DNA of 64,000 nucleotides, taken from positions 8,257,851 through 8,321,850 of the forward strand of contig JAKZAN010000006.1 of the NCBI GenBank assembly GCA_023053545.1, in the 5' to 3' direction. Below are positions 30,707-45,339 of this stretch, in pieces (positions within the stretch are counted from its first letter, which is position 1; each line of letters starts with the position of its first letter). The position numbers and the translations under genes were made by a program. Below the pieces are notes generated by a model, which was not told the DNA's origin, searched no databases, and was given only the letters and a program-made list of their open reading frames with translations. The stretch comes from Lepidurus packardi (lineage: Eukaryota; Arthropoda; Branchiopoda; Notostraca; Triopsidae).

Positions 30707-30810
30707 TTTTGGTACTGTTGCGACCCAAGTTCGATATCTGCCCGAGTTCGAGCTCGGGCAGCCCAAGTTCGTACTTGGGTAGACACTGAACTTGGGACGC
30801 GAGGCATCTG
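30707..30810 (+). repeat. Left terminal inverted repeat with subterminal AAGTTCG motifs
   Basis: The perfect 24-bp terminal match is followed by imperfect pairing to the right end over about 40 more bases (CTGCCCGAGTTCGAGCTCGGGC against CTACCCGAGTTCGAACTCGGG). Four copies of CAAGTTCG or GAGTTCG lie in both orientations. Such clustered subterminal motifs are where a transposase would be expected to bind; that role is inferred. Confidence 0.75.
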
Positions 30811-31531
30811 CCCAAGTTCGATGCTTAAAAGTATGAACTTTATATTTGACGTGAACATTTTGCAGAGGCGTGGCATTTTCCAAAAGAAGGGTGTAGCTTT
30901 GGATGTGACTTTATCTACTTGCAAACATGATCCGTTGGAGTCGCTGTTAATTGTATTTTCTCTCCGGTATAAAGCTTGTTAAAATTGTTATTCTTTCTTT
31001 ATTCAACCCGTGAACAAAAATATAAACAAATGGTATCTCTTTTAACGGAAAAGATTTAGTGAACTTATGTGAAGTTACTTAACTTAGACAGACACAGATT
31101 CATTTTAAATGTATTTTGTATTTATATATTTCATAGAAATCGAAGGATGCTTAAAACTTCTCATTCGACATCCAAACATAGACCTTCGTTGTGTCAAATC
31201 TCCTACTTTCTATTCAAGTTTGTACTTGTGAATGTAACCCTTTCTTAGTGATTACACCGTTGCGTTTCATGTATTGTTCATGCAGTTAAAATAGTGAATA
31301 AAGTGTTAATAAACTTTTTTGTTGTTGTTAAGAAAAGGAGACCGCGTTGCTCGGTCTCTTTGTATTCGCGTATTAAATAAAATCGATACATCTGATAGAA
31401 TAATAAACTTGATGAAATTAATTAACTGGTTTCTTTTTGTTCTGAAAATGCGATGGAAAAAGTGCTCTCTCTACATAATACTGAACTTGAGCTACCCAGC
31501 ATAAGTTCGAACTATTGGGTAAACATATAGC
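30811..31531. other. Left shoulder of the element, no intact gene
   Basis: This AT-rich sequence does not match the right shoulder. A frame at about 30861-30982 (QRRGIFQKKGVALDVTLSTC ... LRYKAC, stop) follows a CAG acceptor-like site and could be the last exon of something lost. A 7-bp hairpin (GAGACCG/CGGTCTC) lies at about 31340-31360. Nothing recognisable. Confidence 0.4.
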
Positions 31532-31559
31532 TCAAGAATTCCCCATAAGCGTCATGTTT

Positions 31560-32600
31560 TGAGAGAGTTTTTATAAGATTTAATAGCACACTTTAACCTG
31601 TTGATGTAATAAATTAAGTGGTTTATCTTTGTGCTGTGAACATGCTATGAGAAGGGGCTTTTTCTACACAATACCGAACTCGGGTTCCCAAAAGTTAGAA
31701 CTCTATCGGTAATAGCCCTATATTGTTCAAGAATTGAGACAATATTGTAAAATTTGATTGAATAAAAATCTTGCTTATGATTTTAAAAAGTTTGAGAGAC
31801 CTTTCGTAAAATTGTATAAAATAATAAGCTTATTGATGTAATAAATTAAGTGGTTTATCTTTTTGTCGTGAACTAGCTGTGAATAGTCCTTTCTCTACGC
31901 AATACTGAACTTGGGCTCCCCAAGTTCGAACTCGGGTAACCCGAGTTCGAACTCGGGGAGCCCAAGTTCAAGAAATCCCCATAAGCGTCCTATTTTGAGA
32001 GAGTTTTTATAAGATTTAATAGCACACTTAACCTGTTGATGTAATAAACTAAGTGGTTTATCTTTTTGTCGTGAACTAGCTGTGAATAGTCCTTTCTCTA
32101 CGCAAAACTGAACTTGGGCTCCCCAAGTTCGAACTCGGGTAACCCGAGTTCAAACTCGGGGAGCCCAAGTTCAAGAAATCCCCATAAGCGTCCTATTTTG
32201 AGAGAGTTTTTGTAAGATTTAATAGCACACTTAACCTGTTGATGTAATAAACTAAGTGGTTTATCTTTTTGTCGTGAACTAGCTGTGAATAGTCCTTTCT
32301 CTACGCAATACTGAACTTGGGCTCCCCAAGTTCGAACTCGGGTAACCCGAGTTCGAACTCGGGGAGCCCAAGTTCAAGAAATCCCCATAAGCGTCCTATT
32401 TTGAGAGAGTTTTTATAAGATTTAATAGCACACTTAACCTGTTGATGTAATAAATTAAGTGGTTTATCTTTGTGCTGTGAACATGCTATGAGAAAGGGCT
32501 TTTTCTACACAATACCGAACTCAGGTTCCCAACTTTGAACTCTATCGGTTGCCCTATGTTCAAGAATTGCCTGCAAATGTCTTTTTTTAATATAATGGTG
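31560..32600 (+). repeat. Tandem array of about 203-bp units with nested palindromes (arm L)
   Basis: The landmark GATGTAATAAA recurs at 31603, 31834, 32038, 32241 and 32444, giving spacings of 231, 204, 203 and 203. Each complete unit carries a palindrome of nearly 60 bases made of AAGTTCGAACTCGGG steps around GGTAACC. The outermost units are degenerate. Mirrored in arm R at about 40232-41272. Confidence 0.9.
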
Positions 32601-32958
32601 CAATATATACCAAATGTGTGTATATTTTCAAAAGTTTGGTTCACTCGGGTATGTTCACTAAATGGAATGCCTATATTTATTAAAATTTCATTTGAACTTA
32701 TGTAGCAGACAAAGCAAATAAATGCTTAGCATCGAAATTGAAAATATAATATTCGTATATGTGATGTAAAGGGAAGGGAAGTTAAGGGGATTCGTAAATG
32801 TGAAGAGTGCGCAGTGCATTTAAGGACAAGGATTTCCCCTATTGGTCGGAATATAACAATATAAGTACAGTCTATATATTCAATATAAGTACTTGGGATG
32901 ACCGTATTCCACTTCTCATTTTACTGTGGTCTTACTAAGAGCGCGAAGCTTGTTTACC

Positions 32959-33425
32959 ATGGAAGGTATATCCTCCCATCTCCTGTGAAGGCGTTTGCTA
33001 CCAATTTCGTTTTTTCTTTTCTTACAGGAAAATGCAATTTAATTGATAATTGTGAAGAGTGTCTTGGTGATGGCGACTGTGCCTTCATGGTTGGACCCAA
33101 CGACGGGGACATCGTCTGTTTCAACGAAGATACGGGGCACCCGCTGGCACCCTACTATGCTCGTATTGAGCATTGCGGTAGTAATACATTTTCTTTTAAT
33201 AGAATATGCTAAATTCGATTCTTTAGATGAAAGTACCTACATTCGAGTGGCTACAAGCCTCGTCGTTCTTGCAGTTTGTGTAATTTGCGTACTTGGAGTT
33301 ATGGTTTACTGGTACGCTCTGAAATGCTTTAATTACAAAACTTTATCCTAATGATTTGTCGTTATAGTAAACGACGGCGTAATCGACGGAATGAAATAGT
33401 ATATGAAAATTACTCATGCTTTTGA
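32959..33425 (+). CDS. PSI-like single-pass membrane protein (arm L copy)
   Basis: Exons 32959-32965, 33028-33177, 33227-33311 and 33368-33425 join to 99 codons plus stop, starting at a near-ideal ACCATGG. After MEGKCNLIDNCEECLG comes a cysteine-rich segment (C-x5-C-x2-C-x5-C ... C) like a PSI/plexin fold, then a membrane helix (VATSLVVLAVCVICVLGVMV), a basic stop-transfer stretch (KRRRNRR) and a cytosolic tail with a YENY motif. The layout recalls PTTG1IP-type proteins, which is a weak analogy. No signal peptide is present unless an upstream exon exists. If the third intron is retained, the tail becomes ALKCFNYKTLS. It lies wholly in the inverted arm, so an identical second copy exists. Confidence 0.6.
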
Positions 33426-33890
33426 TCCTCTTCATGCTTTTGTGTTTCCGGTTTTTGTAATCCAGTTTACGATTTGTAGTTTAATCGGACATTGTATGCT
33501 TTTGATTTTTTCAATGGTTTTTATTGTGCTTTTATCATATTTTGTGATTTTTCTCAATTTTTATGTCTAAAAACTTTGAATACATAAGTTAACCTTGTTT
33601 TTATCTATCTTGTCTGTTCGGTGAAATGTTTTAACAATTTACGCAGCTCCTTTTCCGAAATAAATTTTCCGTTTATTTACTCTTTTCGTTACCTCCTGAC
33701 AACACAAATTTTACACGTTTTCCGAAGGTTTTGCCTTCGAAAGGCTTGGAAAGATACGGTCCGAAAGGGTTGGAAAGCAATGCTATATCGGTTCTTCCGT
33801 CCCCCAGCAACCATCGTTGCATCCCAGCACTCAACCATCGTCGTTCTGATTTGAGGTCACACAGTGCAAACATTGTCGGCTTTTCAAAAT

Positions 33891-34475
33891 TTAGCTTTCG
33901 TCGCTGTTTCCACAAGTTCCACAAAACCAGTCTTTATCCTTGTGCTCCGCCATGTGAAAATTCGTTGCACAAAGGTAATGAAACCATGACAAGCATCGGT
34001 CACACTGTACAGTTTTGTTTTTCGCCGGTAGACTGCATGCAGGACAGCAAAATAGCTTTTTCCCGCGCTTTTCTGCGATGAACTTTTTTACGGTAATCTT
34101 GGCTTGCGGTGTGAGGTACGTATATACTCGGTTAAATTCTTTGTTAACCCGCTGGTCAAGAACTCCATCCGAGATAGCCCGGGAATCTAATTTTAGATCG
34201 CTATTGTCGGCCTTTTCTAGTTTTTTAATTCCTTTGTCCAGACTCGATTCCTTCAGAAGCCATGATAACACTAAGTGCGTCTTTTCTGTAGGCAGCATGT
34301 TTTCAAACTTTAGTGGTCCGGCTCGCAATTTTCTCGACGCCGGAACCGAAGGATGTTTAAAACTGGTCGCACGTACCGTTGTGCGATTGCCTTGTTCCTT
34401 TTGTGTTACGGCCCAATTTAGGACAGTAGTAGCATGAGACGACTGCTGCTTCCCAGCCTTAGATTTGGAATCCAT
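33891..34475 (-). CDS. PHD-finger protein of the element
   Basis: A single 194-codon frame. Residues 1-135 are basic and helical (for example LDQRVNKEFNRVYTYL). A C-terminal PHD finger spans about residues 143-188 with the ligand order C-x2-C ... C-x2-C ... H-x2-C ... C-x2-C, visible in CCPACS, VQCDRC, FHYLCA and DWFCGTCG. PHD fingers usually read histone H3 tails, so this could tether the element's integration machinery to chromatin (inference). The gene begins just after the transposase stop. Its last eight codons, including the final Cys ligand, lie inside inverted arm L. It might instead be the last exon of the transposase transcript, but its own ATG is in a clear context. Confidence 0.7.
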   Translation of the reverse strand: MDSKSKAGKQQSSHATTVLNWAVTQKEQGNRTTVRATSFKHPSVPASRKLRAGPLKFENMLPTEKTHLVLSWLLKESSLDKGIKKLEKADNSDLKLDSRAISDGVLDQRVNKEFNRVYTYLTPQAKITVKKFIAEKRGKKLFCCPACSLPAKNKTVQCDRCLSWFHYLCATNFHMAEHKDKDWFCGTCGNSDES

Positions 34476-34509
34476 CGCTAGCTGCCGAAAAGTAATGGTT
34501 TAGGTTAGG

Positions 34510-37500
34510 TTATAGCAGAGATGTCTTGTTTTCTACCTGATACTCGAGCAATTTGTATGGACTTCGGTTAGTCGAAGCTTCAATTGTCACAGCATTGGAA
34601 GCCCAAAGAAGACAGATCTTTGCATCGCGCAGAATTTCTAAATCATCCGGGGTGTGAGCAATAATTCTATAGCGGTACCAGTAATCATCCAAATCACGAT
34701 CCAGGATTACAGTGGGGTAATCCAAGGCCCCCGTTTCCTTAATACGCTTTTCCATTTTATTGTTTAATTTCCATTTTTGTTCCAACTATAAAAGGAATTT
34801 TAGGGTGAGGAATTTGTGCCATTGAATACCTTACGTAGGGGATGGTAACATGCTCCTCAAAGTGATGCATGTTTGCCTGAATCCATGCATATGCAGCATA
34901 TAACGACGGTAGCACCGTGCGTAAATGCTTGAGTTTCGTGGAATGAAAAAGCGTCTCCAACTTATTAGTAACTGTCGAGCAAAAAGTAATTAAATCTTAA
35001 TCGGGTAAGTTTGAATTCTTCAATAAAATTACCTTTTCGTACAACTTGGTTTGAACATAATCGTCCTCTATGACATGTCGTGCTGCATCGAAGAGATTTT
35101 ATTGTACGGGAGAGGTCAGTTGGATCCAGCAAATTAACGGTCGTTCGACAAGGACAGAATTTTGGTGCGCAATAATTATCTTTGCATTGGCAGTTGAATT
35201 TTTTAAATAAATCATCCTCAGTTAAGGGCTGTGTTTCGTCTTCCATAGGGATAGCCTCCTCGTTGACTGCTTAAATGATTGAAAAGTAAAAATCAATCAG
35301 CAATTTAGGAGGAAGAATCAAAATGCGTACCCATGTCTGCATCAGTGAATTGTGGTTCAGCGGACTGAATCGCTGACTGGTCATCGCGTGGTCCCGCTTG
35401 TGTTTCTGTTTTGAATAATTAGAGTAGTCATCTTCGCGTTTTTCTTTGCAGCAGTATGGTAATAAACTTACCCATGTTCTCATCGATAAGATCACAAGTC
35501 CTTCCGTTATGGCACAAAGCTGACCAATACGGAATGTCAGCCTTCTTGCATTCACATTCCTTACTGTTTATACATGACTCCGTGCAGTCACACATGATTC
35601 GGTTATTCTGGGTTGGGAGGCCTTTCCCTACATGTAATTATATATTGTTGTATGGAACGGGATTAAATGATATATTCACAAAATTGATTTACTTTTTGAA
35701 CAGTTCTTGCTGCAAGTGCATTCCATATCACAGAATGCTCGACAGGAACAATCTTCTGCCACATCGCAGCCTTCAATGCAGTCACACCCATTCGAAGATT
35801 TTTTTGCTTGATGTTCTGTACCGCAGAATAAGTTTGACATTGTTATATTCATTTGCAACTCACTTAATTCTCGTGCTTCGGCATTGTTGCAAGCTTGTTC
35901 GCCATGGCAAAGTTCGGTACATCTCCGTGAGGCCTGCATGCACTTGCAAAATTTTTTCAAACACATCTTACGGCAGCTACAAGAAGTCGCATCTGGATCA
36001 TAAATAAATAAGTCGGGACTTTAAGCCTTGTATCTCTCTTAAATAATTTATGTGCCTACCAGCTTGATCCCAAAAATGGTCTTCAGAGACTTTCAAACGA
36101 TATTGTAGTCCTTGCTCCGACAACACCTGCATTTCATCTACCGGAATGGATCTGTACGGTTCGTGATATTCAGGTTTGCAATAGTCGTTCGAATCGTCAG
36201 AGTTCACATCTCCTAAAAGAAAAACAAAACCTTACCCACTTCGCCCCAAAACAAAGTGAAGAAATTACCAGCAAGGTTATATGCGGAGCCGATCACTTCG
36301 TTTACTTTAAACCTCAGAGCTTGAAAGTATAATTGTGTAACTGCCATACTTGTTTCAGAAAGCGCCTGGTTTTGGCAGTACCTTCCACCATGACAAGCCG
36401 ATGTGCAATTTTTTAACGTTCGGTTACACCTGCACCGCTTAGTTTCACAAGCACTTTTACACTCGCAAATGTCTACTTTGCTTTTACCGCCGTAAAAAAG
36501 TCGAACCGCCGTCCTTAGCGGTATAACTTCGTAACTTTTACAATGGTAGAGTTGCTTAAATTTCTGTTCATAAAGTTCTAATTGATTTTCCGTATATGAC
36601 TCCCGAAGTACCCCGTGGAACGACTGGACGGTGTAGGTTCGGTATGTATCACCGCTCACTCTGATGACTATACCTGGAAGGCGGCTGCTCTCCAAGCTTG
36701 TCCGGTCTTTGGTGGGAATTAACACGGTAACGTGGTTCCCTACTTCTAGCTTGGTTGTGCGTTTGCACGGATTTAACCCAGCCTTTTGATTCATAGTTTC
36801 ATGGCTATGGGATAATGCTGCTGCCGCTTGGCTGCGGACAAAGCGGAAGATGGCCAGACGATCCTCGTTTAGTGGTGCAACACCGTCAAGCTAAAATAAA
36901 AATACATAAAAAAATTAAATATGATGAACCATGGCAGTAATTTTGTTTTCTTGGTGGAAAAGTGCACGCAGGTAGTACCTCTGAGTCCGTTTCAGCGACT
37001 TCAACATCCGTGCAGATCACACCACTTCTACCGCAGTAGGCTTCGATGACCGGATTGGCAGTTGACGTGGAAGCTAGCGCAAAAGGGTCCTCTTCAGGTT
37101 CCATTAACTCCTGAGTCGGCGATTTCAGGCATACCACATCTCCACCGCAGTAGGCTTCGATGACCGGATTGGCAGTTGACGTGGAAGCTAGCGCAAAAGG
37201 GTCCTCTTCAGGTTCCAATTCCTGAGTCGAAACAGATAATTTTTCAAGTGATAGCTCAGGAACATTGGAAGGAACAACATCATCATTGGAAGAAACTTAC
37301 AGCATCAAGGGTATCTAGAAAAATGAAGTCCGCTGACAGAGTAGGAAGAGGTTCTGATCCGTCTTCCTCGCTATCTTCTGAATCAGGACCCAATGGCAGT
37401 TCCGTAGTGGTATAATCAGCAGCTGGTGTTGGGTTTAGTTCCGGTCTTCCATAAGGTACCGGAGCTTTCCCAAACATGACCGCGAATGAAGATAGTTGGC

Positions 37501-38666
37501 CAATGGGTTGTGATCTTCTCGTATTCATTTGATCTGAAAATAAAATACAACATTATTCCATTACAAACCCAAATCCCTCATTGTTTAATCAAAAGAATAT
37601 TACACTGAACTACTGGCAGCCAGTAGAGCCAGGTTCTTTGTTGCTTGTCGGTCAGCGTGCGGTTACGAAGCAATTTCTTCAGCTCAGCGTTGGCCCGCTC
37701 AACTACTCCTTGGCTTTGGGGATGTCGTACCCTTCCAAAGATATGTTGTATGGGCCAATTACTTAAGCCCGCTGCCAACGCCTGTGAAATAATATTAATC
37801 TTCCTTTGGTATCCGTTCATGTTCATGTTAACAGTATTACTTGATCCCGAAATTCAGTTCCATTATCTGTCTGGAGCCTTTTTGGGGGTCCAAACACGCT
37901 GAACACGTATCTCAGTAAGCCTTCATAGATTTCCGTCCCATTTTTTTGCGCATTGGCCATAGAATATGGAAACGGGACGCCAAGTCTACATACTGGGCTA
38001 TGTAGCGATACCCGTCGACAACCGACTTCTTCGGCAGAAGGACCAGATCGAGCTACCAAAGAAAAATAAAATCTGTAAGCTTTTCCCCGTATCTTCTCAG
38101 GACCACTTACCTGTCCTTGTGACATGACATCACTGGCAACCACGTGCCTCATGGGAGTTGCATTTGTTTGGACTTTTTTGGTTGCACAGTACGGGCACAT
38201 TTGGGTATATTCTTCAACTAAAAAACGGGTTACTCCATAGTAATACGCTTGCACCTAAAACAATGTTATAGTATGGTAAGCTTGATATATTGCTTAATTA
38301 ACTTACATAATGAAACGCCGCCCTAGGTGACGTATGATTCGTGTCATTTTCGTGCACCTTCTTGATGTAATCGTACATTTCTTCAGCCCGGACGACGCGC
38401 TTGAAAGGTTGACGCGCGTACCCTTTTGCCATACTTTGGGACGGCTCAGTAAAGCACGCAACGTATTCCTCACCGCTTTCGTCAGTTTGCAAAATAAATT
38501 TTCTACTTATTTCATTACTTAACGTCGCCCCTTCTTTTTGTTTATGCAATTCGGCAAGAATCTTCTGATATTTCTCATTGGTGATAATCACCGAGTTGCG
38601 AACTCTGGCTTTTTGTCGTACCACTAAATCAAATTTCTCGCGATCCACAGGACCAAGACCCTGCAT
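34510..38666 (-). CDS. Integrase-type transposase with CXC cysteine array (frameshifted)
   Basis: Fourteen exons: 38666-38307, 38254-38111, 38052-37841, 37781-37604, 37533-37301, 37221-36979, 36890-36269, 36212-36060, 35992-35693, 35627-35472, 35405-35331, 35269-35033, 34971-34835 and 34785-34510. They make roughly 1,108 codons if one -1 shift in exon 3 is allowed. Order: N-terminal helices, an HHCC-like zinc site (CPYC), a DDE integrase core (first Asp in LDLV, second in LQTDNGTEF, Glu in HPQSQGVVERANAELKKLL), an acidic linker with a 96-base duplication, a beta-rich segment (LEVGNHVTVLIP ... YTENQLELY), then at least four Tesmin/TSO1-like CXC blocks (CECKSACETKRCRC, CSCRKMCLKKFCKC, CDCTESCINSKECECKK, CQCKDNYCAPKFCPC), and an unidentified C-terminus. 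The same arrangement occurs in KRBA2-like and Ginger proteins. In exon 3 the two halves of the core lie in different frames that meet at a run of seven A at about 37950. Acts on the element's termini (inference). Confidence 0.8.
36979..37221 (-). repeat. In-frame 96-bp duplication in the transposase linker
   Basis: Exon 6 of the transposase contains two near-identical copies of an acidic segment beginning MEPEEDPFALASTSTANPV or LEPEEDPFALAS, joined by GGDVVCLKSPTQEL. The DNA copies are almost identical over about 85 bases, so the duplication is recent. Confidence 0.9.
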
Positions 38667-38870
38667 TTTAAACTTAATGTAAGGAGCAGAATTAGCAAAC
38701 TGCAAGCAACATGATAACTAAAAAAGAAAGGACAACAACTTAAAGACAAGTTTAATCTCACTATCACATTAATATAGAGGCAAGAGCAACACTCAACACA
38801 ACACAACCGAAGCACACATGCAGCAGGTCAGACGAGCTGTACTTGCGCCCAGAGCTAAAAATCGGTCTTC

Positions 38871-38908
38871 AAAATTGGCGAGCGAAATCGCTCTTCGCTC
38901 GCAATTTT
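38871..38908. repeat. Hairpin at the inner edge of arm R
   Basis: AAAATTG-CGAGCGAA pairs with TTCGCTCG-CAATTTT around a short loop, with one bulged G. It ends five bases from the inner boundary of arm R. Arm L has no counterpart at its inner boundary. Confidence 0.75.
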
Positions 38909-39406
38909 AAAAGAACTTGTGGAAACAGCGACGAAAGCTAAATTTTGAAAAGCCGACAATGTTTGCACTGTGTGACCTCAAATCAGAACGACGATGGTTG
39001 AGTGCTGGGATGCAACGATGGTTGCTGGGGGACGGAAGAACCGATATAGCATTGCTTTCCAACCCTTTCGGACCGTATCTTTCCAAGCCTTTCGAAGGCA
39101 AAACCTTCGGAAAACGTGTAAAATTTGTGTTGTCAGGAGGTAACGAAAAGAGTAAATAAACGGAAAATTTATTTCGGAAAAGGAGCTGCGTAAATTGTTA
39201 AAACATTTCACCGAACAGACAAGATAGATAAAAACAAGGTTAACTTATGTATTCAAAGTTTTTAGACATAAAAATTGAGAAAAATCACAAAATATGATAA
39301 AAGCACAATAAAAACCATTGAAAAAATCAAAAGCATACAATGTCCGATTAAACTACAAATCGTAAACTGGATTACAAAAACCGGAAACACAAAAGCATGA
39401 AGAGGA

Positions 39407-39873
39407 TCAAAAGCATGAGTAATTTTCATATACTATTTCATTCCGTCGATTACGCCGTCGTTTACTATAACGACAAATCATTAGGATAAAGTTTTGTAAT
39501 TAAAGCATTTCAGAGCGTACCAGTAAACCATAACTCCAAGTACGCAAATTACACAAACTGCAAGAACGACGAGGCTTGTAGCCACTCGAATGTAGGTACT
39601 TTCATCTAAAGAATCGAATTTAGCATATTCTATTAAAAGAAAATGTATTACTACCGCAATGCTCAATACGAGCATAGTAGGGTGCCAGCGGGTGCCCCGT
39701 ATCTTCGTTGAAACAGACGATGTCCCCGTCGTTGGGTCCAACCATGAAGGCACAGTCGCCATCACCAAGACACTCTTCACAATTATCAATTAAATTGCAT
39801 TTTCCTGTAAGAAAAGAAAAAACGAAATTGGTAGCAAACGCCTTCACAGGAGATGGGAGGATATACCTTCCAT
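39407..39873 (-). CDS. PSI-like single-pass membrane protein (arm R copy)
   Basis: Exact mirror of the arm L gene, with exons 39873-39867, 39804-39655, 39605-39521 and 39464-39407. Splice sites, membrane helix and both possible C-terminal tails are preserved. The two copies point toward each other across the transposase core. Whether both are transcribed cannot be told from sequence. Confidence 0.6.
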
Positions 39874-40231
39874 GGTAAACAAGCTTCGCGCTCTTAGTAA
39901 GACCACAGTAAAATGAGAAGTGGAATACGGTCATCCCAAGTACTTATATTGAATATATAGACTGTACTTATATTGTTATATTCCGACCAATAGGGGAAAT
40001 CCTTGTCCTTAAATGCACTGCGCACTCTTCACATTTACGAATCCCCTTAACTTCCCTTCCCTTTACATCACATATACGAATATTATATTTTCAATTTCGA
40101 TGCTAAGCATTTATTTGCTTTGTCTGCTACATAAGTTCAAATGAAATTTTAATAAATATAGGCATTCCATTTAGTGAACATACCCGAGTGAACCAAACTT
40201 TTGAAAATATACACACATTTGGTATATATTG

Positions 40232-41272
40232 CACCATTATATTAAAAAAAGACATTTGCAGGCAATTCTTGAACATAGGGCAACCGATAGAGTTCAAAGT
40301 TGGGAACCTGAGTTCGGTATTGTGTAGAAAAAGCCCTTTCTCATAGCATGTTCACAGCACAAAGATAAACCACTTAATTTATTACATCAACAGGTTAAGT
40401 GTGCTATTAAATCTTATAAAAACTCTCTCAAAATAGGACGCTTATGGGGATTTCTTGAACTTGGGCTCCCCGAGTTCGAACTCGGGTTACCCGAGTTCGA
40501 ACTTGGGGAGCCCAAGTTCAGTATTGCGTAGAGAAAGGACTATTCACAGCTAGTTCACGACAAAAAGATAAACCACTTAGTTTATTACATCAACAGGTTA
40601 AGTGTGCTATTAAATCTTACAAAAACTCTCTCAAAATAGGACGCTTATGGGGATTTCTTGAACTTGGGCTCCCCGAGTTTGAACTCGGGTTACCCGAGTT
40701 CGAACTTGGGGAGCCCAAGTTCAGTTTTGCGTAGAGAAAGGACTATTCACAGCTAGTTCACGACAAAAAGATAAACCACTTAGTTTATTACATCAACAGG
40801 TTAAGTGTGCTATTAAATCTTATAAAAACTCTCTCAAAATAGGACGCTTATGGGGATTTCTTGAACTTGGGCTCCCCGAGTTCGAACTCGGGTTACCCGA
40901 GTTCGAACTTGGGGAGCCCAAGTTCAGTATTGCGTAGAGAAAGGACTATTCACAGCTAGTTCACGACAAAAAGATAAACCACTTAATTTATTACATCAAT
41001 AAGCTTATTATTTTATACAATTTTACGAAAGGTCTCTCAAACTTTTTAAAATCATAAGCAAGATTTTTATTCAATCAAATTTTACAATATTGTCTCAATT
41101 CTTGAACAATATAGGGCTATTACCGATAGAGTTCTAACTTTTGGGAACCCGAGTTCGGTATTGTGTAGAAAAAGCCCCTTCTCATAGCATGTTCACAGCA
41201 CAAAGATAAACCACTTAATTTATTACATCAACAGGTTAAAGTGTGCTATTAAATCTTATAAAAACTCTCTCA
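40232..41272 (-). repeat. Tandem array of about 203-bp units (arm R copy)
   Basis: Mirror of the array in arm L, with the same unit order and the same degenerate edge units. A further palindromic block at 41300-41352 and another at 43688-43728 carry the same GTTCGAACTCGGG steps toward the right terminus. Confidence 0.9.
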
Positions 41273-41389
41273 AAACATGACGCTTATGGGGAATTCTTGA
41301 ACTTGGGCTCCCCGAGTTCGAACTCGGGTTACCCGAGTTCGAACTTGGGGAACCTAAGTTCGGTATTGTGTAGAAAAAGCCCTTTCTCT

Positions 41390-43202
41390 GCGCAAAACAA
41401 CAGAACGCAAATCAAACATCTGACCTTCACAGACAGTCGCCAACGTAGCATAGAGAAACTCGACACCGCAATGCTAAAATTCATCAAAGAAATGCAAACA
41501 AAACGAAACGACGAAAATAGACAAATCAAAATTGAACTGGACGCCATTAACAGTACCTTGAGACACCTAACATTGAGATACCTAAGAGACACTAATGAAG
41601 GCCATTTCATACGAAGATTCAACCCCCAACTTAATTCCGAGGAAAAAACGGGGAATCCTTAACGGTGGAGGTGAAGTCTTGCGCTGGCTTTTTGGCACCC
41701 TTAGCAGCAAAGATCTAGAAGACATTAACCGAAAATTCAGCAGGATAACAAAGGACAATAGAATGCTGTATCATTTAGAAGAACAACAGGCTACATTACT
41801 AAACGGCACGTACCTGCAGGTCCGGAAAAATGTGGACGCTATTTCAAAAATTACGAAAGCAGTGAGTAGCCTTGCCAGTAGTGTTGAAGACCTCGAAGCT
41901 GTGATTTCAGAATTTGGAGATTTTTATGCGTTTACGTGGAATTTTGCTCGAAAATTGGACAACGCTTATCATACCCTTGGTACCATTATACTTTGGTTAC
42001 ACCAAAACGTTAATAACATGAACACGGGCTTGTCAACAATAGCGTCAGGACGACTTTCACCAAACATAATTCCTCCAACAGAGCTATGGCAAATTCTTCA
42101 AGAAGTAAGCCGCTACCTATCCCGCAACTGGGTCGTAACAAAGGCGGCAGAACCAGGGAACATGTGGACCCATTATCAGGAATTCCGGGTGCGTTCAGCA
42201 GCAACACTCCAAGGCACACTGAAAATCTTCGTGGACATACCACTACAAGATTTAAGTACTACACTTGATCTATATCAACTAATAGCTCTACCGACTTTTT
42301 TACCTGGAGGGAATTTCTCAGGTGACACAATACGATTATCTCGGCTTAACAAGCGACAGACAGTCGTATGTTGAATTTACTTCCTCAGAATTGGCAGAAA
42401 CTTGTACAACAGGATCAGCGAAGATTTGCTCCACCAGTAAAGCCCTCACGCGTGGCATCCATGGGCGCTCTTGCTTGTATGCTGCGTTCTTTAATGATAC
42501 TGTCTTGATTGCGGAATTGTGCAAAAAGACAGTCCGAATAGACGGCAGGCCATGGTGTCATTACCTTGGGAAAAACAAATGGATCTATTCAATACCTCAA
42601 CCAATGCAACTTACAATATCTTGCCCAGAAGAACGACGTCCAGAAGCCTACAGCAAGAGTTCCAGTGTCCAGCTAAATGATGTGGGCATCTTAGAACTAC
42701 CGGATGGCTGCTCAGCTCACTCCGGGTGGTGGACCTTTCCGGCAAACTTGGAAAAACTTAATAATTATACAATCCACACCAGCACTATAGACGTAAAAAA
42801 TATCTTTTCCGATTTAGATTTTAACTTACCATATCCTGTTGTGCAACTCCCAAAACCAAATCATCAAGGATTAACGCAAATTACCAAAGACATTTTGGAA
42901 GACCTACAGAAAAAAGTACATTAGACCCAAATTGGGAAATCAGATACAAGTTGTTCGAAAAAGCAGTTCAAGATTCAAAACCTATTTTTAATAATCTGAG
43001 TGACGAAATTTCGTATGTCTGTCTGACCCAAAGCTTCTTGACCCAATTTTTACTATACTGTTGGGCTGTTGTGATTACTGCCGCCACAGTATTTGCCCTC
43101 CCTGCCATCATCTATATGTTTTTGAGGCTTAGATGGCTGACAAGAAAACAAATTGAACTACTTCGTCTCTGGCAAACCTTACTTGATGTTGATGATAAAT
43201 AA
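41390..43202 (+). pseudogene. Broken envelope fusion-protein gene (baculovirus F / errantivirus type)
   Basis: Four successive plus-strand frames carry the parts in order. The first (from about 41390) resembles the small F2 part. The second has a furin-like RKKR at 41640-41651 followed by a Gly-rich hydrophobic stretch, as at the fusion peptide of baculovirus F and errantivirus Env, then long helices. The third (42322-42924) has the Cys-rich beta region. The fourth (42951-43202) has a membrane anchor (about 43036-43125) and a short tail. Frames change near 41600-41640, 42320-42370 and 42915-42950, so the gene is not intact. The 5' end fuses directly to arm R sequence and no signal peptide remains. 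No gag or pol and no LTR were found beside it. A frameshift-tolerant alignment would settle the family. Confidence 0.75.
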
Positions 43203-43687
43203 GTAGGGTATATATAGTGAATTATAAATTCCAACTTGTAATTCAATATTATTATTATAATAACCATACCTGGATATCCAACTTCTGCATGCTATACGTT
43301 TGAGCTACTGTTATTATATGAGTGAACATTAGTTACCAACAAACTTTTCAAGTACTGTACCCCAAAAACAATAATAAAAATAATGATACATATAAATTGA
43401 GGAGTGACAAGCACAACTCTACTCTTTAGTGATGAAAGTCGACACAAGTGGCGTAAACTGCAATTCTAAGTAGCCCCTCCTACATGCAACGCCTCCAAGT
43501 AAAGTAGTCTACACTCCACTGTAAACAAAACTTGTCATGTAAACTTCGAAGATAAATATTTAAATAAGTTGTGAAATTACTGCCAAGGTAATAATGCCAA
43601 ATTAAAGATAACTAAACCAATAAACTGTATTGTTAATTTCACTTGCAAAAACTGTGTAGGTGTGGAGAACTTTACTGTCAAATATTG

Positions 43688-43763
43688 CTACCCGAGTTCG
43701 AACTTGGGTTACCCGAGTTCGAACTCGGGTAGAGGCTCTACTTGGGTCGCAACAGTACCAAAA
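43688..43763 (-). repeat. Right terminal inverted repeat
   Basis: Palindromic CCCGAGTTCGAACTTGGG and CCCGAGTTCGAACTCGGG blocks lead into the 24-bp sequence that is the exact complement of the left end. The terminus is about 120 bp upstream of the LRR1 start codon. Confidence 0.8.
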
Positions 43764-43874: not shown

Positions 43875-45339
43875 ATGTTACTAGCAGGGACAGTGAATAT
43901 TGTAAATAGGTTATTGCCTTCCACTGGTCAGAAATCTAAAAGTAAAAGCTGCAAGACAAACATCGTTGTAAGTACTTCTGCAGCCAATGGTTTAGAGGTA
44001 TCACTATATACAGCTAAAAATAAAGAAGGCGTCAGTTACAAGGTGAGAAGAATTACGGTAAATATAACTAACACCATATAGTTCTTTTATGTTTGTTTTC
44101 GGTTTTAATAGATCTCTGGAAATGTGCAGCAAATCTTCCAGACGTTTATAAAAGAAGGAAAACTTACTATTCGCTTTATACAACCTGCTCATGATTTGTG
44201 CTTCACCGCAGCAGCAGAAGCACTAGCAAGATTTGTGGATGTCATCACCGGAAAAACTCCCGTTGGCAGTTTATCTGTCAATGAAGCTGCAGGAACATGT
44301 AGCTCTTATGTTAAAAAAGTAGCTGGCAAGCTTCCATCTAGAAAAACGAAGTTATGGATAACTCACAAGTCGGATTATCCTATCACAACTTCGTTTCCTG
44401 ACACCTTGGAATGTCTTAAAGTGATATCATAGTTTTTATTTGATTATTAGTGTTCATCGTATTGTGTTGCAGATTAATGAAATATGCCTAAAGAAAGTTG
44501 ACCGACGTATCTTGCGATTGAAAAACCTAACAATCTTGGACTGCAGTCATAATGAAATTAAAGAGCTGCCTCAGTTCGACACTAGCTGCTTGCCAAGTTT
44601 GGATACTCTGATTCTGAGTTACAATCAGATTAAACAACTACCTGCTACTATCCAAAACCTCTCTTGCCTTCGCCATTTGGACGTGAGCCACAACAAACTC
44701 GACAATATACCTCCGCAGCTATGCAACTTGGCCAAGCTGAGTAAACTGTGCTTAGATCACAATAGTATTCTTCGACTACCATTTAATTTGGGTAAAATGA
44801 AGTCCCTAAGGTGGGTATTCTTGTATTTTTACTACATGCACTACCCTGTACTATTGTGCCAATAGAGAGGCCCTGTTAGCTCATAATAGTCTTAGCGCTT
44901 TGCCGTCATCCCTATTGGAGCTCAAACTAGAAACTCTTGATGTTTTCGCCAATACACACATTCAAGACGTGACCACAAAGAACATACCGGTGTCGTGGTC
45001 GCCGGTCGCAAGCTTGAAAGAATTAGCTGGACGAGCCATTTTAAAGCAAAAGTATCAGAAGCTACAAGTTTTCTACTTAGCCACAGTATTAAATTATATC
45101 TTTTATTCAGGATGTACTTGACAGAAGAAAATGTTCCTTGGGATGTTTTACATTATTTACGTAGCAGTACTTTATGTTTATGCGGTAAAACATGCCTGGA
45201 CCACACATTTATAGCGTATGTAAATTGTTCCCTCCGAAGACTGGCCATATCGGTCAGTGGTCCTGATGTAGTAGCATTACAAACCTCATTTTGTTCCATC
45301 AAATGCTTTCATAAATACCAAAATAGTTTTGCGATTTAA
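43875..45339 (+). CDS. LRR1: LRR1, substrate receptor of a CUL2 ubiquitin ligase
   Basis: Five exons (43875-44042, 44112-44420, 44473-44810, 44866-45051, 45111-45339) give 409 residues, close to the human 414. The N-terminal PH-like half (TAAAEALARFVDVITGKTPV) precedes about six leucine-rich repeats (LTILDCSHNEIKELP, LDTLILSYNQIKQLP, LRHLDVSHNKLDNIP, LSKLCLDHNSILRLP). The C-terminus has paired cysteines (CLCGKTC and FCSIKCF), as in vertebrate LRR1/PPIL5, where the region binds Elongin/CUL2. CRL2-LRR1 ubiquitylates MCM7 to unload the CMG helicase at replication termination (family knowledge). ATG 43875 is the only in-frame start before the first donor. The 13-kb element ends just upstream, so promoter sequence must lie in or beside it. 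Confidence 0.92.

Follow-up and report, generated by a model that had tools for sequence, protein, structure and literature searches.

A 13.0-kb element bounded by TGTTG...CAACA spans positions 30716-43754 of a 64,000-nucleotide stretch of the Lepidurus packardi genome (contig JAKZAN010000006.1, positions 8,257,851 to 8,321,850; this whole stretch is referred to as the window). Between the ends of the element we located an integrase-type transposase, a PHD finger, two copies of a membrane-protein gene and an envelope gene, the same set that a preliminary description had read from the DNA, with the PHD and Baculo_F (envelope) matches over the Pfam cut-off. The features are the following (ORF, open reading frame; +/-, strand).

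30712..30715, no strand: target site duplication at the left end, GTAC
30716..30782, +: left terminal inverted repeat, perfect over 15 bp (TGTTGCGACCCAAGT), imperfect after that
30716..31528, +: left shoulder, without a long ORF; at least 23 long genome matches, window included
31529..33919, +: long inverted arm on the left side, complementary at 100% to its counterpart on the right
31791..32491, +: copies of a repeat spaced 203 bp apart in the left arm, with many CCCGAGTTCGAACTCGGG-type palindromes
32889..33351, +: gene for a small cysteine-rich membrane protein, copy 1; membrane segment by eye
33891..34499, -: PHD-finger exon (Pfam PHD, 5.8e-6, over the cut-off)
34510..34785, -: putative open exon between the CXC array and the PHD exon
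34965..36890, -: transposase C-terminal region with CXC repeats (exon 36890-36269; ORFs 36020-35676 and 35270-34965)
36886..37296, -: ORF of the acidic linker, containing a direct duplication of 77 bp at a spacing of 114 bp
37301..38666, -: integrase exons 38666-38307, 38254-38111, 38052-37841, 37781-37606 and 37533-37301 (gene model; H2C2, DD35E)
38913..41303, -: right long inverted arm
39481..39943, -: membrane-protein gene, copy 2, in the right arm
40341..41041, -: copies of a repeat in the right arm, spaced 203 bp apart
41586..43202, +: envelope of Baculo_F type, spread over three overlapping frames, 41586-42374, 42286-42924 (Pfam) and 42825-43202 (hydrophobic segment, by eye)
43203..43754, +: right non-coding end; the part 43227-43754 is common to a PAN-carrying sibling element (L082) at 86%
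43688..43754, -: right terminal inverted repeat
43755..43758, no strand: right target site duplication, GTAC

The left junction reads ...TTTTG GTAC followed by TGTTGCGACCCAAGT, and the right junction reads ACTTGGGTCGCAACA followed by GTAC CAAAA. The target site duplication (TSD) GTAC at both ends bears out the coordinates 30716..43754 of the preliminary description. The perfect 24-bp terminal inverted match reported there proved to be composite: 15 bp lie inside the element, where the inverted similarity continues imperfectly over ~67 bp, and the other 9 bp are the GTAC duplication and 5 bp of palindromic target.

We searched a genome of 108.6 Mb in 344 contigs, in which the window is C5:8257851-8321850 (C1, C2, C3, C5 and C39 are contig labels); the left shoulder, right shoulder and centre were queried separately and the best candidates scored, and the copy counts are lower bounds. 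The left shoulder has at least 23 long matches (at least 734 bases), window included; of the other 22, 20 start within 10 bases of 30716 and two later. Exact copies of the 18-bp left terminus number 25 genome-wide: they adjoin 22 of the 23 long matches, one lies ~7.4 kb away from the 23rd, and two more are found beyond the long matches, solitary or by a short match. With up to two mismatches the terminus has 33 genome matches, against four for a reversed-pattern control, and because of this difference and the 25 exact occurrences its recurrence is not due to chance. At least 15 copies match the right shoulder, envelope included, from base 113 or earlier through the right end, and the C39 copy matches it from base 311. 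Left ends carry TGTTG, and CAACA was found at all 20 right ends fetched.

When left and right ends were paired, 17 of 20 pairs had a perfect 4-bp TSD, two were mismatched and one could not be scored (left end absent). Sixteen of the TSDs are GTAC, GTGT, GAAC, CAAC, AAAT, GGTC, GGTG, TATG, TCCT, GGGT (twice, with different flanks), TATA, GATC, ATAC, GGCC and AGCA, the last belonging to the sibling L082; the 17th, GAAC, comes from the copy with a displaced left end. Copies without transposase are likewise flanked by TSDs. The target sites (n=16) form a weak T-G-NNNN-C-A palindrome, with T in 13/16 and G in 10/16 before the 4 bp and C in 9/16 and A in 9/16 after it. Because the copies share both ends and the order of parts, with different flanks and 4-bp TSDs, the whole 30716-43754 unit inserts as one piece. 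The element proposed in the preliminary description is thereby confirmed, on stronger evidence than was first shown. The boundaries of the inverted arms (31529/41303), considered as the true ends, were rejected, as TSDs stand at the outer ends and long shoulder matches run past the arms; copies ending at these boundaries (given earlier as 31532/41300) with no envelope region, which the preliminary description had said would speak against a single unit, were not found among the end pairs examined.

Two further arrangements were seen among the copies. C2:7991744-8015212 consists of two tandem copies with GCAC on both outermost flanks, which suggests a dimer insertion or a later duplication. The copies at C2:8387126-8392499 and C5:6745925-6750973 both lack the transposase, keep an open envelope frame and bear an insert of equal length (630 bases) at the same place near the start of the right shoulder; their flanks differ and each has a TSD, suggesting that a non-autonomous derivative has itself moved.

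The transposase model, with GT-AG introns, runs in order through an N-terminal region, an H2C2 finger, a DD35E core, an acidic linker, a C-terminal domain and CXC repeats. A Pfam CXC match was obtained in the ORF 36020-35676 only; the other CXC repeats (36890-36269 and 35270-34965) were read by eye. The PHD exon could be the last exon of the transposase, with which its splice phase is compatible. The catalytic exon is not a single open frame in the window copy. In the window and in two other copies its match is split in two, and in 8 of 11 copies one match spans the break, each with one TAG that corresponds to the last intron codon in the window.

The transposase is colinear with a protein of the rotifer Didymodactylos carnosus (P0001), C-terminal CXC included, at 29% identity, and H105, H111, C140 and C143 as well as D170, D231 and E267 (35 residues between the last D and E) are conserved between the two. 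Pfam scanning of the rotifer protein gave no PHD, unlike the window. For the integrase alignment the exons were joined as in the gene model, with X at the frame break; a two-row profile of the window and P0001 matches the prototype foamy virus (PFV) integrase at 1.1e-23. In a tree of 11 rows the window adjoins P0003 (support 48/50). With P0003 and P0018 removed for their long branches, the resulting nine-row tree has a 95/92 split between the window, P0001, P0002, P0004 and P0016 on one side and four rows bearing a reverse transcriptase on the other, and the pairing of the window with P0001 alone, at 59/52, is unsupported. A grouping of the window with the four reverse transcriptase-bearing rows, named after the first tree had been seen, was rejected on the nine rows (approximately unbiased test, p-AU 0.0256). 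No IMG/VR relatives of the CXC exon or of an envelope piece were found.

We considered whether the CXC array reads TTCGAA in the way that LIN54 reads TTYRAA. According to PMC4974476, LIN54-type CXC repeats each hold a DNA-inserting tyrosine and bind TTYRAA, which is optimal only where Y = T or R = A. The idea is weakened by this restriction and by the tyrosine position, which in the repeats of the element is F, R or E (by eye, against the LIN54 repeat), so that the contact tyrosine that marks Tesmin/LIN54 is unconserved.

The name that fits the element best is a Ginger-like DNA transposon with cargo, outside Ginger1 and Ginger2 in the strict sense. As described by Bao et al. 2010 (PMC2836005), Ginger elements are 2.6-7.1 kb long and carry OTU, Ulp1 or PHD domains, the PHD finger being recorded in Ginger1-9_HM. 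The Ginger affinity proposed in the preliminary description stands as regards the TGTNR termini, the 4-bp TSD, the gypsy-integrase-like transposase with H2C2 and DDE motifs and introns, and the PHD finger; it does not extend to either published target preference, and the perfect terminal inverted repeat is short (terminal inverted repeats measure ~40-270 bp in the superfamily, versus 15 bp perfect and ~67 bp imperfect here). The element further differs from the Ginger1 and Ginger2 of that source in its length of 13.0 kb, its CXC array in place of OTU or Ulp1 (neither of which had a Pfam match in the exon ORFs scanned), its 2.4-kb inner arms, its other target motif, and its genes for a membrane protein and an envelope; none of the words env, envelope and CXC is used in the text of PMC2836005. 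Pfam scanning of 16 element ORFs yielded no reverse transcriptase, as would be expected of Gypsy/Metaviridae, and no protein-primed DNA polymerase B or capsid, as would be expected of a Polinton/Maverick.

The inverted arms 31529-33919 and 38913-41303 are each 2391 bp long and 100% complementary. The preliminary description had pointed to subterminal AAGTTCG clusters at both ends, and the counts agree: AGTTC/GAACT occurs 41.7 times per kb in each of the first and last 120 bp, and 22.6 and 23.5 times per kb in the tandem regions of the two arms, compared with 2.2 times per kb in the remainder of the window. The centre, which is the transposase interior, is full-length in at least ten copies at 99-100% identity and in two pieces in an 11th, with two further copies partial. 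In two of 11 copies (C3:6607574-6620406 and C3:7592035-7607095) the ~5-kb centre has the opposite orientation with respect to the shoulders, the outcome that recombination between the arms would give.

The membrane-protein gene falls into two overlapping frames in the window copy and forms a single 154-aa frame in a second subfamily. All 11 transposase-bearing copies have a pair of matches to it, and these 22 matches in the arms, two in partial copies and one 62% fragment at C1:4438481 (within the old copy L105) make up its 25 matches in the genome. The protein has no Pfam match even at E 10. A host origin (PTTG1IP/PSI-like) was tried and set aside, with zero Pfam matches at that threshold and none of the 25 genome matches outside the family.

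The envelope of the window matches Pfam PF12259 Baculo_F in two pieces, 41586-42374 (E 9.2e-9) and 42286-42924 (E 1.9e-6), scoring 34.9 and 27.2 bits against a cut-off of 24.1 and covering profile positions 136-327 and 339-535 in order; a motif like the RKKR cleavage site was seen by eye. In this family membership it resembles the errantiviruses, envelope-bearing Metaviridae and baculovirus F protein. A genome scan gave 55 Baculo_F matches, 28 in the element family and 27 elsewhere, most of the latter with long open frames. Of the 11 copies with the transposase region, ten also have envelope sequence, which appears in two separate rows (6/10) or in a single row limited to profile positions 110-357 (4/10); the 11th has a right shoulder cut short and no envelope row. 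Nine envelope queries did not find the F2 part upstream of 41640. Synonymous and non-synonymous differences number 1 versus 5 between L095 and the window and 0 versus 8, 1 versus 6 and 0 versus 1 in three other comparisons, so that the five copies give no sign of purifying selection, on differences too few to judge. Identity to the 13 other Baculo_F loci compared is only 22-32%, and on this sequence evidence the envelope is not a recent copy of any of them; one of the two best, L088, adjoins a reverse transcriptase and an integrase.

Older relatives bear on the age of this gene. The locus L081, which is duplicated as L104 at 99% identity, has the same order as the window: a left end and pieces of the left shoulder come first, then integrase exons with 74-75% nucleotide identity, 112 nucleotides of envelope at 91% and the non-coding right end (84-85%); no right terminus was found for it. 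Because L081 holds the envelope stretch at the same relative place, the envelope, to judge by the alignments, was aboard before the divergence from L081/L104, and it is by the same measure real, old cargo. The sibling L082 (C3:2804800-2811900) shares both ends at 81-86% and has three ORFs that match the PAN domain with E 2e-5 to 6e-4, in one case above the curated cut-off, and no transposase or Baculo_F piece of the window matched it. Since L082 bears PAN-domain ORFs instead, the family looks like a cargo carrier whose cargo varies between siblings. Two further old copies, L105 and L106, are interrupted by what appear by eye to be other retroelements.

We consider it probable that this is a 13.0-kb Ginger-like cut-and-paste transposon that carries cargo genes, including an old captured envelope that is now a passenger. 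The transposase would bind subterminal AGTTCGAACT palindromes, excise the element as double-stranded DNA and join it to the target with a 4-bp stagger, and recombination between the arms would flip the centre. The envelope may have been captured from a metavirus- or baculovirus-F-like source before the divergence of the old relative, and would today be dispensable for transposition. Its role is most likely that of passenger cargo, because the copies able to provide transposase have it in interrupted or partial form.

Several points weigh against this explanation. The Pfam matches to rve_3 (37578-37853, E 8.5e-4) and TCR/CXC (35676-36020, E 2.8e-4) are under the curated cut-offs, the integrase tree is poorly resolved, and the perfect terminal inverted repeat is only 15 bp. 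The Ginger1 target, CCGG or CCGT/ACGG, occurs in 0/17 TSDs, and the Ginger2 target RTATAY fits 1/17 (TATA, in GTATAC). Two end pairs have no TSD, C2:7191717-7204552 (AAGG/AGGT) and the tandem-pair member C2:7991744-8004200 (AATA/GCAC), and an empty site for the window insertion was not found in the assembly. The uselessness of the envelope is, moreover, something that we infer: ten loci have an envelope but no transposase match, the one on C39 lying at a contig edge, and four of these keep long open envelope frames (541, 512, 512 and 478 aa; in the sequence fetched, three of them read as 496, 505 and 454 aa), with stops on the upstream side of the match or flagged within it.

Another explanation is a virus-like transposon, in which the envelope, perhaps with the small membrane protein, serves transfer from cell to cell or host to host, as has been proposed for errantiviruses and envelope-bearing Mavericks. 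We regard this as unlikely. It would account for a fusion-protein gene (Pfam) with an RKKR-like cleavage site and a C-terminal hydrophobic segment (by eye), aboard prior to the L081 divergence and with a long open frame in four of the ten loci that lack a transposase match; against it, all ten transposase-bearing copies that have an envelope have it interrupted or partly matched, the F2 part was not found upstream, no capsid or polymerase domain appears among the ORFs scanned, and purifying selection is unseen, with few differences to judge by. The suggestion of the preliminary description that the element works like a virus at present does not hold up in view of these interrupted envelopes, the undetected F2 part and the sibling with PAN ORFs. 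Nematode Mavericks with envelopes, which Widen and colleagues reportedly described in 2023, are likewise DNA elements with a membrane-fusion gene, and the present element is unlike them in its size of 13 kb, its cut-and-paste-type transposase and the lack of a DNA polymerase B or capsid match.

The long open frames in transposase-less copies also leave room for a two-part system, which we think quite improbable, in which transposase-bearing copies with an interrupted envelope and transposase-less, open-envelope copies share ends and complement each other; the envelope would be kept for occasional transfer between cells or hosts, and movement would otherwise be that of any Ginger-like transposon.

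Just as doubtful is a nested patchwork, in which an errantivirus-type long terminal repeat (LTR) element inserted into a simpler Ginger element and its envelope remnant was then copied along. The 27 other Baculo_F matches in the genome, with a reverse transcriptase and integrase beside the one whose surroundings were read, speak for it; against it, the envelope is no more than 32% identical to any of the 13 other loci compared, the old relative has its envelope stretch at the same relative place, and no LTR was noticed in the right shoulder. The preliminary description had named an LTR element in the right shoulder as an explanation that would undo its own, and we rejected that origin: among the matches listed, of 318, the envelope-coding part occurs only in family copies and relatives. 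The non-coding right end has three short matches elsewhere, at C5:5851998, C1:2390970 and C1:2351641. In contrast to errantiviruses and Metaviridae, no LTR was noticed in the element and no reverse transcriptase match was obtained.

That the element is a shrunken endogenous DNA virus using a Ginger-type integrase, like the sesarmid nimaviruses, seems very improbable. PMC10871703 presents these as large DNA virus genomes of crustaceans that insert in (AT/TA)n with a Ginger2-like integrase, a precedent which the element recalls in having an integrase-type transposase and viral genes between inverted repeats. A 1190-aa host ORF, for which four of 11 matches are named, all Daphnia (29-32% identity), also speaks for it. 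On the other side, no viral core gene was matched and no nimavirus gene noticed in the 13 kb (16 ORFs, Pfam; no nimavirus profiles used), the ORFs of at least 110 aa listed for L105 and L106 are only retroelement-like (by eye), and the best integrase relative lies on contigs of at most 20.8 kb with no virus link seen. Segmental duplication or an assembly artefact is extremely improbable, since the 99-100% identical interiors, the 100% complementary window arms, the tandem pair on C2 and the duplicated L081/L104 (99%) that might suggest it are countered by different flanks and 4-bp TSDs at 17 end pairs on several contigs.

Envelopes are known from retrotransposons (errantiviruses), and fusion genes from Mavericks. 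Here a class II element has captured an envelope, which lies inside its own ends and moves with it as one unit; an envelope inside a Ginger or other cut-and-paste element was not found in the literature searched, a collection without most subscription papers and without bioRxiv preprints. The cargo varies between siblings, an envelope and membrane protein in one and PAN-domain ORFs in another, and the element makes it testable whether envelopes help DNA transposons to cross between hosts.

Beyond the right end of the element lies an LRR1-like gene (43875-45121; Pfam PH_LRR1 and leucine-rich repeat), whose apparent start, by eye, is ~120 bp away.

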